Part shown: one piece after another, positions 9,189 to 16,634 of the stretch
Layout: each line of letters opens with the position of its first letter
Position numbering within the stretch: the first letter of the stretch is position 1
Virus record (IMG/VR): IMGVR_UViG_3300045974_000143
Coordinates: 1 to 24,523 of that record
Origin: a virus
Length of the DNA: 24,523 nt
Direction: 5' to 3' (one strand)
The notes under the pieces: model-generated
The model's input: the letters and a program-made list of their open reading frames with translations, nothing else
What the model was told of the DNA's origin: nothing
The model's database searches: none
Made by a program: the position numbers and the translations under genes

Positions 9189-9276
9189 CTTTGACCCCCT
9201 TTGATTCATTTTGGATTTTTGCACAGATGGGTACCCACGCGGTCTGCAGTGGAAACTCTGTAGAGATTTTACCCCC

Positions 9277-9624: not shown

Positions 9625-9684
9625 AGCATAATCCTTACTGTGTTCTTTTTGCAACTATGTTCACATCGTGGGTGCTTACACAAC

Positions 9685-9710
9685 GACACTCCCCTAAAGG
9701 GGAGAGTGTC
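9685..9710 (-). other. Stable hairpin in the late-operon leader
   Basis: GACACT and CCCC pair with GGGG and AGTGTC around a TAAA loop, with two extra bases on one side. It lies between the predicted late promoter and the HNH gene, so it would form in the 5' leader of the late transcript. No U-run follows, so it is not a simple terminator. Confidence 0.5.
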
Positions 9711-9809
9711 CGTGCGTGTCATATGCACCAGTTTGTTTTGTGTCACATGCACCAGCCGTGTCACATGACACGCACGGTCTAATTATATGTTTTGTGCCGT
9801 GCGTGTCAT
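9710..9809. repeat. Repeat cluster: three copies of CCGTGCGTGTCAT plus shorter related sites
   Basis: The 13-mer CCGTGCGTGTCAT occurs identically at 9710-9722 and 9797-9809, and inverted at 9765-9777. The last two form a perfect 13-bp inverted repeat with a 19-bp spacer. Between them lie GTGTCATATGCACCAG (9716-9731) and GTGTCACATGCACCAG (9740-9755), one mismatch apart, and a further GTGTCACATG at 9758-9767. The cluster fills the gap between the primase-helicase stop and the late genes. It looks like a multi-site protein-binding region (operator, or iterons of an origin). Confidence 0.75.
9782..9809 (-). promoter_or_regulatory. Leftward late promoter inside a 13-bp dyad
   Basis: On the - strand there is -35 ATGACA (9804-9809, 5 of 6), a 16-bp spacer and a perfect -10 TATAAT (9782-9787). 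The -35 lies in one arm of the 13-bp dyad, and the other arm (9765-9777) covers the expected start point, so a protein bound to the dyad would control it. It points at HNH, terminase and the head genes. Confidence 0.65.
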
Positions 9810-11834
9810 TCATATCAGACCCTTGAACATTGACTCAGTTACCTGCTTTTCTGATTGAACCATCGTGTAATACTTGCCATCCAATTCAACTTCACCCGCT
9901 TCAATCATCTTCGGTATCTCTCCACCATCCTGACGGAATAGAGCGGTCCGGAGTGCACGTCGTGACTTGTCGGGAAACATGGCAGCAAAACAATCAACCC
10001 ATGTGTCAGCACAACACTTACCGCCAATATCATCAGCCTCTATGGCTTCGACCAATGCAGCACGTGCAGCCTTCCTGTATGCTGTCTCTGCGCGTGCAGC
10101 TTTGCTGTTGTAGTCCAGGTCATACTTCAGCACGCAGGATCCATCCCGCTTGCCTTCACCATACTGGATAGGCAACAACTCAAACTTAATAGGAGCGTGT
10201 GGTTCCATGTCCTTGGTCTTCGTCCATTCGATAGTGCGGTCCTTGGTGATCAGGATCTCCACATCCATAGCACCTTTGATTGCTGATGATCCGCGGGCGC
10301 GCTTACTGGCAGAGTCAGCATGGCCAGTGTGATGAACGATCAGCACAACGCAATTGTACTTTGTCTGCAGCCGATCGCACTCATCGATGAAGGACCCAAC
10401 ATCCTTGGAACTGTTCTCGTCTGCATCACCTGGCAGAGCTCGCGCCATGGTATCGACAATAATTACCGCCGGCGGACCGGTGACCGACTCCAGGTGATCA
10501 ATCTCTGAAACCATATCGCGTACTGACTCTGGACTAAAATCGATACGTGCTGACGACATAAGAAAGCTGTTGTAGGGCAGTTGTACTTTGTGGTGTGTCT
10601 CCCATGCCTTCATCCTGCGCGGGATAGCATGACGCCCCTCGCCACAGACGTAGAATACAGGACCCTGCTTGACGGTCTTACCGAGCCACTTCTTGCCGCA
10701 TGCGATATGAAATCCCATATCCAGAGCGACGAATGTCTTGCCGCCTCCAGATGGACCGAAGACCATACCCGTACAAGGTGTCTCGATAGCATCCTCAATC
10801 AGGAACTGTGGCTCAACCAGGGCAATGGTTTTGATGTCCACAAATACCTGTGATCGCTTATGACTCGACAACAGGTCGCGTGTCGCCTTGCCGCCGTGCT
10901 GTATTGCGTAATCGTTCCAGTCTCCCTTCTGGCCGACAGGGAAGGGTGGCGCCATCACTACGCCGCGGGCGATCTGCTTGACTGCATTGTTTGCCGCCTT
11001 GATGCCGGGATTCTCGTCGCTGTCCGGTTTCTGATCATTGTCGGCAGCGAACACCAGTTGTGCCGAGGGGAACATCTTCCCGATCTTCTCGCCTACCGTG
11101 GCAAGGTTACCAGCTGATACGGCCATGACTGCCGTTTTACCTGTGGCCATGGCGACTGTCTGCGCTGTTGCGTATCCCTCACAGACATACACCACGTCAC
11201 GCTCACCACCGATGATGTAGAAATTGCCCGTCAGTCGGCCGCAGTTATTGATCTTCTTGCCGCCTTCCTGGTCGATGCGCTGCACGCTCCATATCACACC
11301 ATATTCATCAGACAGTGGAATCAGGATGTTTCCCGTTTGTGGGTGAATGCGTATTCCGTTGTCGGCGTTGATGCCCTTCTTGATCAGGTAAGGGTGGTTG
11401 TGCGGGCAGGATTCGGACTCAACCCACAGGCCGAGGGCGATCTTCTGCCCTGCTGCGTAGCGTTCCTCGGGGGATTGTTGCGGGATGACTGGAGTCGGCC
11501 GGCAGTTAGTAGAGCCACAGGAGAGAAGATCCTGCAGTCTACCAGCTGCCACTGACATACTGACATCATCGATCTGTGCCACCAGATCGATAGCATCGCC
11601 CCAGGCCTCCCCGCTGCCGAAGTCGGAACCGACTCCGGTGCGGACATTGGTGGAACATGAGGATCCGGCGCCGCCATACTTTGTTGCGCAAATATACTCA
11701 CCGTTGATCAGTTTGCCCCCGGGCTGGTAGTGCTCCAGGATCGTCATGATGTTGCTGGTGCAGAGTGACTTGATTGCGGCGAAGTCGATTTCTTTCTTTT
11801 CGTCGGATGTGCCCCAATGGTTGAAGTCAATCAT
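9810..11834 (-). CDS. TOPRIM primase / RecA-like (RepA-type) helicase
   Basis: This 674-aa replication protein has two halves. The N-terminal half has a DNA-binding/primase-like part (about 1-110) and a TOPRIM domain: VVYVCEGYATAQT with E219, then LVFAADNDQ with D265 and D267, then GDWNDYA near 305. The C-terminal half is an AAA_25/RepA-like hexameric helicase: Walker A GPSGGGKTF (360-368), Walker B AVIIVDTMAR with D461, and the VLIVHHTGH sensor near 498-505. The start at 11834 overlaps the upstream stop (ATGA); a longer reading would add 14 residues inside that gene. It is the last gene of the early/replication operon, next to a repeat cluster that may include an origin or operator. Confidence 0.9.
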   Translation of the reverse strand: MIDFNHWGTSDEKKEIDFAAIKSLCTSNIMTILEHYQPGGKLINGEYICATKYGGAGSSCSTNVRTGVGSDFGSGEAWGDAIDLVAQIDDVSMSVAAGRLQDLLSCGSTNCRPTPVIPQQSPEERYAAGQKIALGLWVESESCPHNHPYLIKKGINADNGIRIHPQTGNILIPLSDEYGVIWSVQRIDQEGGKKINNCGRLTGNFYIIGGERDVVYVCEGYATAQTVAMATGKTAVMAVSAGNLATVGEKIGKMFPSAQLVFAADNDQKPDSDENPGIKAANNAVKQIARGVVMAPPFPVGQKGDWNDYAIQHGGKATRDLLSSHKRSQVFVDIKTIALVEPQFLIEDAIETPCTGMVFGPSGGGKTFVALDMGFHIACGKKWLGKTVKQGPVFYVCGEGRHAIPRRMKAWETHHKVQLPYNSFLMSSARIDFSPESVRDMVSEIDHLESVTGPPAVIIVDTMARALPGDADENSSKDVGSFIDECDRLQTKYNCVVLIVHHTGHADSASKRARGSSAIKGAMDVEILITKDRTIEWTKTKDMEPHAPIKFELLPIQYGEGKRDGSCVLKYDLDYNSKAARAETAYRKAARAALVEAIEADDIGGKCCADTWVDCFAAMFPDKSRRALRTALFRQDGGEIPKMIEAGEVELDGKYYTMVQSEKQVTESMFKGLI

Positions 11835-15606: not shown

Positions 15607-16634
15607 GCTTTGCACTCCACAAACTGCCCTGCATCATCCAGCGAATACCAGACTTCTGCTTTCAGTTTGCCGTCTGATCCGTCCCCGCAGCCGGTTTCAG
15701 CACAACGCATTTCATAGCGTTCGTCTACTTCATTCCAAAAGGAAAGAGCAATACAGCCATACTTGCCGGCCATGGCCTTTGAGTAACGGCCCGTACAAAT
15801 CGCCGCACTGCTGTCACCAGTGGCTGACGATGCTGATCTGTAACCAGTGGCTGACGATGCTGAGCTGTAACCAGTGGCTGACGATGCTGAGCTGTCACCA
15901 GTGGCTGACGATGCTGATCTGTCACCAGTGGCTGACGATGCTGATCTGTCACCAGTGGCTGACGATGCTGATCTGTAACCAGTGGCTGACGATGCTGAGC
16001 TGTAACCAGTGGCTGACGATGCTGAGCTGTCACCAGTGGCTGACGATGCTGATCTGTCACCAGTGGCTGACGATGCTGATCTGTCACCAGTGGCTGACGA
16101 TGCTGATCTGTAACCAGTGGCTGACGATGCTGATCTGTAACCAGTGGCTGACGATGCTGAGCTGTAACCAGTGGCTGACGATGCTGAGCTGTCACCAGTG
16201 GCTGACGATGCTGAGCTGTCCTGCGTGATATGGTTCGACGTGGACGTTTCGTACTTGCGGGAAAACATGAATTTGAGGCTTGCGCCGATAAAGTCCGGCA
16301 GTGAAAGCGAAGCGCCTATTTTGATTTCAGTGCAGGCAACCTTGCTATCATCAGCATGCTTGTCAGTCTGTCCAAAGCCCTCTACTTCATGGAACACGCT
16401 TTCAGCAGGAGAGTAGTAACTGAATACGTCCAGCGGGTTTTCGCAGAAGTGAAAGCCAGAATTACAGGCTGAGGCTGTGCCCTTATGCTTGAAGGTTTCG
16501 CCTTCCTTGAATTGGAATTTACGGCATGTCAGGTCTTTGTCGAAACCCTTGAAGCCCTTTATTCCGGGTGTAGTGGGTGCTGCACCCTCTACGGGTGCAG
16601 CTTTCTTTTTGGTTGTCTTCTTGGCGGTTGTCAT
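15603..16634 (-). CDS. DUF7666-like protein with 9-residue tandem repeats
   Basis: This 343-aa protein has three parts. The first about 20 residues are Lys/Thr/Ala-rich. Residues of about 24-125 match the phage domain now called DUF7666: IKGFKGFDKDLTCRKFQF, then SGFHFCENPLDVFSYYSP and a DDSKVACTEIKIGASLSL strand. The middle holds 15 near-identical nonapeptides plus a degenerate 16th (for example YSSASSATG). The last about 60 residues (AMAGKYGCIALSF onwards) end in a Cys-containing tail. Such repeats suggest a repetitive beta-solenoid. The function of the family is not known to me. The SD is TTGGAGG. The stop overlaps the helicase start, and the repeat length may vary between isolates. Confidence 0.82.
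   Translation of the reverse strand: MTTAKKTTKKKAAPVEGAAPTTPGIKGFKGFDKDLTCRKFQFKEGETFKHKGTASACNSGFHFCENPLDVFSYYSPAESVFHEVEGFGQTDKHADDSKVACTEIKIGASLSLPDFIGASLKFMFSRKYETSTSNHITQDSSASSATGDSSASSATGYSSASSATGYRSASSATGYRSASSATGDRSASSATGDRSASSATGDSSASSATGYSSASSATGYRSASSATGDRSASSATGDRSASSATGDSSASSATGYSSASSATGYRSASSATGDSSAAICTGRYSKAMAGKYGCIALSFWNEVDERYEMRCAETGCGDGSDGKLKAEVWYSLDDAGQFVECKA
15814..16218. repeat. Tandem repeat, 15 copies of a 27-bp unit
   Basis: Exactly 15 units of 27 bp, each with the invariant core CAGTGGCTGACGATGCTGA, encode the nonapeptides of the DUF7666-like protein. Units differ only at TCACC/TAACC and GATCTG/GAGCTG. The order of variants shows a larger period of about five units (135 bp). 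Other frames stay open through the array only because 27 is a multiple of three. Confidence 0.97.

Follow-up and report, generated by a model that had tools for sequence, protein, structure and literature searches.

A candidate replication origin of iterons and a terminal hairpin directly behind a phage primase-helicase gene

We analyzed a 24,523-bp stretch of viral DNA from IMG/VR, referred to below as the window, and found that the segment at positions 9685-9809 is likely to be the replication origin of the phage. It would belong to the primase-helicase encoded next to it, whose C-terminal winged helix would bind the repeats (iterons) of the segment. As judged from sequence comparison, the segment lies directly behind the helicase gene and is made of iterons and a hairpin, the same arrangement occurs throughout a family of related loci, and the type of iteron is linked to the C-terminal domain of the enzyme.

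The 13-mer CCGTGCGTGTCAT was found in three exact copies, two on the plus and one on the minus strand (Table 1), and nowhere else in the 24,523-bp record. Simulating 200 sequences with matched dinucleotide composition never produced a 13-mer present three times within 100 bp, and the other 13-mers of the window with this density appear confined to a 27-bp tandem array at 15811-16220. That array consists of 15 units of CTGTCACCAGTGGCTGACGATGCTGAT with 97% identity, inside a 343-aa gene adjoining the helicase (ResIII) gene. Two copies of CCGTGCGTGTCAT form a perfect 13-bp inverted repeat with a spacer of 19 bp and arm centres 32 bp apart, and GTGTCAYATGCACCAG is present twice, at 9716 and 9740. 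Exact matching and the simulations are in agreement with an earlier reading of the window made from its letters alone (the sequence-only reading), which had described a 13-mer repeated three times in 100 bp, a perfect dyad with about 32 bp between arm centres and further copies of the longer repeat. It had passed over an additional GTGTCAC at 9758, the hairpin core CTCCCC-TTTA-GGGGAG at 9689-9704 and the fact that the primase-helicase stop codon directly adjoins the array. The outer stem of the hairpin (9685-9688 with 9707-9710) carries a 2-nt bulge. The cluster takes up the space from the helicase stop (9810) to the HNH gene, and on the helicase strand it is ordered as the dyad with its AT-rich spacer, two more iterons, the third 13-mer and the hairpin. 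An AT-rich stretch flanked by iterons was seen in the window, at this dyad.

Table 1. Positions of the candidate origin, the neighbouring primase-helicase gene and the nearby promoter candidate in the window
Feature	Position	Strand	Remarks
Primase-helicase gene, 688 aa: TOPRIM + RecA/AAA_25 + C-terminal winged helix	9810..11876	-	Pfam Toprim_3 1e-10, AAA_25 1e-33
C-terminal winged-helix domain, residues 599-688, proposed iteron binder	9813..10082	-	AF2 model; identity tracks iteron type
SRRALRTALFRQDGGEI, putative recognition helix region, residues 638-654	9915..9965	-	Comparison with L204 and L011, and AF2 model
Iteron copy 1, outer arm of 13-bp dyad	9797..9809	+	ATGACACGCACGG on helicase strand; exact match
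AT-rich spacer between dyad arms	9778..9796	.	Contains the TATAAT "-10" of the sequence-only reading; candidate melting region
Iteron copy 2, inner dyad arm	9765..9777	-	Exact match
Iteron core GTGTCAC	9758..9764	+	
Iteron GTGTCACATGCACCAG	9740..9755	+	
Iteron GTGTCATATGCACCAG	9716..9731	+	
Third exact 13-mer; doubles as the 5' arm (helicase strand) of the extended hairpin	9710..9722	+	
Terminal hairpin GACA-[CT bulge]-CTCCCC-TTTA-GGGGAG-TGTC	9685..9710	-	Core 9689-9704
Better late-promoter candidate: TTGCAA (9654-9649), 18 bp, TATGCT (9630-9625)	9625..9654	-	Consensus match only

The sequence-only reading had placed a leftward late promoter on the dyad and proposed a late-gene switch, that is, a sigma-70 promoter (minus-strand ATGACA-16-TATAAT) under the control of a dyad-bound repressor or activator. 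The promoter-like match is indeed present (11 of 12 positions), the dyad would overlap it, and it lies upstream of the HNH, TerS, TerL, portal and capsid genes. However, such a match is ordinary, since shuffled sequence is expected to hold 0.9 +/- 0.9 of them per kb. In L204, a Deltaproteobacterial prophage-like relative, GTCTTT stands in place of TATAAT and the -35 box is lost while the iterons stay, a promoter scan found none at this place in L204, L011 or L012, and in other phages the same design precedes unrelated genes. A site of the form TTGCAA-18-TATNNT beyond the hairpin is better kept, and recurs as TTGCAA-18-TATGGT in L011 and TTGCAA-18-TATAAT in L012. The boxes were correctly noticed, but the late-gene switch built on them is unsupported, and we consider a promoter at the dyad very improbable. 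AT-rich stretches between iterons can be misread as promoters, and caution is advisable.

The element could also be both an origin and an operator, at which the helicase or another phage protein sets the early-to-late switch. Its location at the border of early and late genes in the window and in L011, as well as the overlap of the promoter-like match with an iteron, would fit such a double role; in PB15, XX1924, CGphi29 and L014, however, there is no such border at the element, and we regard the double role as unlikely.

The leftward genes of the window encode a Cas4-type exonuclease, the primase-helicase, an HNH protein, TerS (Terminase_4), TerL, the portal and an HK97-type capsid protein; a homing-endonuclease-like gene (phrog_314) is present at 1309-2082 among the late-operon tail genes. 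Since HNH and terminase genes are adjacent and repeats with a dyad are typical of cosB, the element might belong to the packaging site (cos), where terminase would bind the repeats. We dropped this explanation, which is hardly probable at all, because a separate conserved cos-like motif, GACCGCGTGGGTACCCATCTGTGCAAAA, is located at about 9217-9244 between the HNH and TerS genes and is common to the window, L004, L006, L007 and L015. In addition, it is the helicase and not the terminase that the repeat element accompanies in other phages.

Modelled with AF2 (mean pLDDT 80.6), the helicase matched T7 gp4 (5ikn, 1q57) over the TOPRIM and RecA domains, where T7 gp4 was the best structural match, and RSF1010 RepA (1g8y, TMt 0.67) over the helicase domain. 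Neither a C-terminal winged helix nor recognition of an iteron origin is known for T7 gp4. Residues 599-688 of the model fold as H-E-H-H-H-E-E, with a pLDDT of about 90 over most of the domain. VIA-align returned many tied winged-helix matches for this domain, which therefore support the fold only, and a Foldseek search with it gave nothing below E 0.001. The SRRALRTALFRQDGGEI region differs by one residue in L204, which has the same iterons, and has diverged in L011, which has different ones. The phage-encoded DNA-binding protein, described in the sequence-only reading as not obvious, is probably the adjacent primase-helicase acting through this winged helix, and not one of the small regulators named there. 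In L198 the helicase ends early, and the hairpin element separates the helicase core from a short ORF of its own which, on reading of its translation, encodes the C-terminal winged helix; L198 would be a natural split of the helicase from its DNA-binding domain.

Six close relatives of the helicase, 55-85% identical, were read. The element was found at the same position in L011, L012, L014, L015 and L016, with different repeats and with the type of hairpin kept, namely a pyrimidine arm, a TTTA loop and a 2-nt 5' bulge (CT; CC in L012). The outer stems, in turn, vary on both sides across the window and these relatives (GACA/TGTC, TCACA/TGTGA, ACAT/ATGT, GGTA/TACC and TACA/TGTA). The hairpin of L204 likewise retains core type, loop and bulge and has a changed outer stem. 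The sequence-only reading had made its proposal depend on conservation of the 13-mer in related prophages, and L204 retains two of the three copies (12/13 and 13/13 bases), with the first dyad arm reduced to CGCACGG. The first dyad alone is kept in the sixth relative, L013/L124, where an opposite-strand gene takes the place of the remainder (L006:2082-2696 / L013). When viral contigs were searched for exact matches to the 13-mer with GTGTCAYATG after it, none was found, and a phage nucleotide search gave matches to HNH only.

When the 16-mer of the hairpin was used as a query, 106 stretches were retrieved, and helicase genes ending 70-119 bp upstream were seen among unrelated matches. The eight genes adjoining such hairpins contained AAA_25 in seven cases and DnaB_C in one. 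Many of the stretches were isolated inverted repeats or unrelated repeats, as in L042, L074 and L116, where CTCCCCTTTAGGGGAG belongs to an interspersed repeat, present several times in each contig and without relation to helicases. The hairpin 16-mer alone being unspecific, we drew an unbiased set of loci from protein searches, chosen by protein similarity alone.

The relatives have a common design in the same place, in which direct repeats are accompanied by one inverted pair and followed by a terminal hairpin, and the repeat sequence varies by phage (GTACCGAA, CATCCGAA, GGTTCA, CGGTACA, GGTAAC and others). This shared design gives good support to what the sequence-only reading had offered as its alternative, an origin with iterons. 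Dense direct repeats were present in 65 of the 86 distinct downstream regions, and many of the remaining regions have repeats farther on, behind an inserted gene, or fewer exact copies (L204, L206, L192). Within 265 bp past the helicase stop, the median number of 8-mer repeats was 38, in comparison to a control mean of 3.5. A strict rule, demanding a 7-mer in three copies and a perfect 7-bp hairpin right behind the helicase stop, was passed by 50 of 79 loci and by 35 of 964 control windows. The spacing of the repeats had its mode at 10 bp and further peaks near 21-22, 34 and 44 bp, as would suit sites lying along one face of the double helix. In L130, L132, L146, L152, L162, L163 and L169 the element lies about 475-1250 bp on, beyond a gene inserted after the helicase; some of the inserted genes look methylase-like or PAPS-reductase-like when read. 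Six deposited phage records (CGphi29, 1N2-2, XX1924, PB15, CRP-406 and ct3Oc712) bear the element unannotated, the first five of them being isolate phages. No such element was seen behind the gene in L214 and L215, the Mycobacteriophage and Gordonia RepA-like helicases.

Among 25 distinct perfect hairpin cores with a 4-nt loop, the loop was TNNA in 22 and the closing pair C-G in 20, and most stem positions showed three or four pair types. The filter used for these cores demanded Watson-Crick pairs and a loop with pyrimidine first and purine last, so the pairing is given by construction, whereas the T...A bias of the loop is not. A constant direction of the loop relative to the helicase was considered and dropped, as L036, L052 and L077 appear reversed; the nearest ORF with a Walker motif lies on the opposite strand there, and the loop can thus face either way.

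A variable stem with a kept C-TNNA-G loop and 5' bulge, within the transcribed strand of the helicase gene, might equally be expected of a structured RNA from the end of the helicase transcript (an antiterminator, attenuator or non-coding RNA), with the conserved bulged hairpin as its functional part. We find this explanation improbable: Rfam returned chance-level miRNA matches, none above the gathering threshold, most direct iterons lack a pairing partner and are spaced with a peak at 10 bp, iteron identity tracks a domain of DNA-binding type, G-T pairs are few in the stems (36/647), and the loop appears to face the other way in the three loci just mentioned.

The link between iterons and enzyme could be followed in pairs of loci. 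The window and L204 share iterons, with helicase cores 86% and C-terminal ends 80% identical; the window and L011 have different iterons, with cores 96% and C-terminal ends 64% identical. L164 is 90-94% identical in its core to the GTACCGAA or GCACCGAA group and 39-51% identical at its C-terminal end, and its iterons are of another type. At core identities of 0.90-0.95, the identity of the C-terminal end was 0.77 in pairs sharing iterons and 0.47 in pairs that do not. For 78 loci, iteron sharing and C-terminal identity were correlated beyond what the core accounts for; this partial correlation was reached by none of 999 permutations within core clusters. A segment scan gave a partial r of 0.30 at the end of the protein, against 0.01-0.29 elsewhere, so that the C-terminal domain is not sharply isolated. 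As far as sequences can tell, the iteron type follows the C-terminal winged helix and not the core.

We infer protein binding, strand opening, hairpin extrusion and the start of replication at the element as follows. The winged helix of the helicase would bind the iterons (GTGTCAY core, direct and inverted) just behind its own gene. As the RecA ring assembles there, it would open the AT-rich spacer of the dyad, and the enzyme would be loaded. The terminal hairpin with its C-TNNA-G loop, single-stranded once exposed, would mark the site of helicase loading or of first priming, and it is probably used for one of these. Precedents in SaPI Rep, pRN1 and RSF1010 make each step plausible. In 4 of 5 scorable isolate genomes (in this comparison the hairpin of CRP-406 was not located), the cumulative GC-skew minimum was offset from the hairpin by 1.1-2.6 kb and fell close to where transcription diverges, and GC skew is not decisive as origin evidence. 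In the window, third-position skews differ between the left and right sides of the element (GC p 0.006, AT p 0.0002), a difference that may reflect late and early genes differing in codon use.

An iteron origin beside its helicase is of a kind already known, and origins are known for few tailed phages. In the open-licence literature we found no description of such an origin with a TOPRIM/AAA_25 enzyme that carries the winged helix itself and with a TNNA hairpin as a fixed part. There is perhaps an even chance that the element represents a large undescribed class of phage origins, served by primase-helicases resembling T7 gp4 and RSF1010 RepA that acquired a winged helix at the C-terminus and load themselves onto the iterons following their gene. 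The iterons and the winged helix would diverge in step, so fast that sister phages lose a shared origin sequence, and the C-TNNA-G hairpin would stay fixed as a single-strand start signal. Origins could then be recognised in many metagenomic and isolate phage genomes by looking just behind a TOPRIM/AAA_25 helicase gene for repeats accompanied by a C-TNNA-G hairpin, and the matched pairs of winged helix and iterons would be a natural series for studying the evolution of initiator specificity. If confirmed, the element would offer a system in which one protein suffices for a helicase to load itself on an origin.

The SaPI/PICI rep-ori systems (staphylococcal and Gram-negative PICIs; SCCmec Cch2) resemble the window in that iterons lie directly 3' of a replicative helicase gene, that the C-terminal domain of the helicase binds them there, as it would in the window, and that iteron sets flank an AT-rich stretch, in the window at the dyad. 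PICI Rep and Cch2 are helicases of other families (AAA+/SF3 type), whereas the window encodes a TOPRIM + RecA-type (T7 gp4/RepA-like) primase-helicase, and the nearly constant TNNA hairpin is an added part of the phage element. The window enzyme, being AAA_25/RecA-type with TOPRIM, falls outside the PICI/SaPI Rep helicase family; the element is therefore likened to these systems in its working and is not a member of them. The C-terminal domain of SaPI Rep binds iterons directly downstream of rep (PMC7581432), and the PICI ori contains an AT-rich region flanked by two iteron sets (PMC6092414).

The origin of the archaeal plasmid pRN1 is a stem-loop 3' of its primase-helicase gene orf904 (PMC4234260). 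Plasmids of this type share with the window a stem-loop conserved in structure and variable in sequence, right behind the gene of a primase-helicase that bears a winged helix; they differ in having an AEP primase with an SF3 helicase and a single long stem-loop. The authors of the pRN1 study did not take the iterons as the origin in the related phage BIP-1 (PMC4234260).

The oriV of RSF1010 (IncQ; RepA/RepC/RepB', ssiA/ssiB hairpins) comprises iterons plus hairpins, as described in PMC4234260, and the hairpins are set beside that of the window by description and not by sequence. The window enzyme counts among the RepA-family helicases by its AAA_25 domain and the fold match to 1g8y, and the two systems have a RecA-type helicase of the same fold in common, as well as iterons and hairpins at the origin or, in the window, the candidate origin. 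In RSF1010, however, the iteron-binding RepC, the helicase and the primase are separate proteins, whereas the window fuses primase, helicase and proposed iteron binder.
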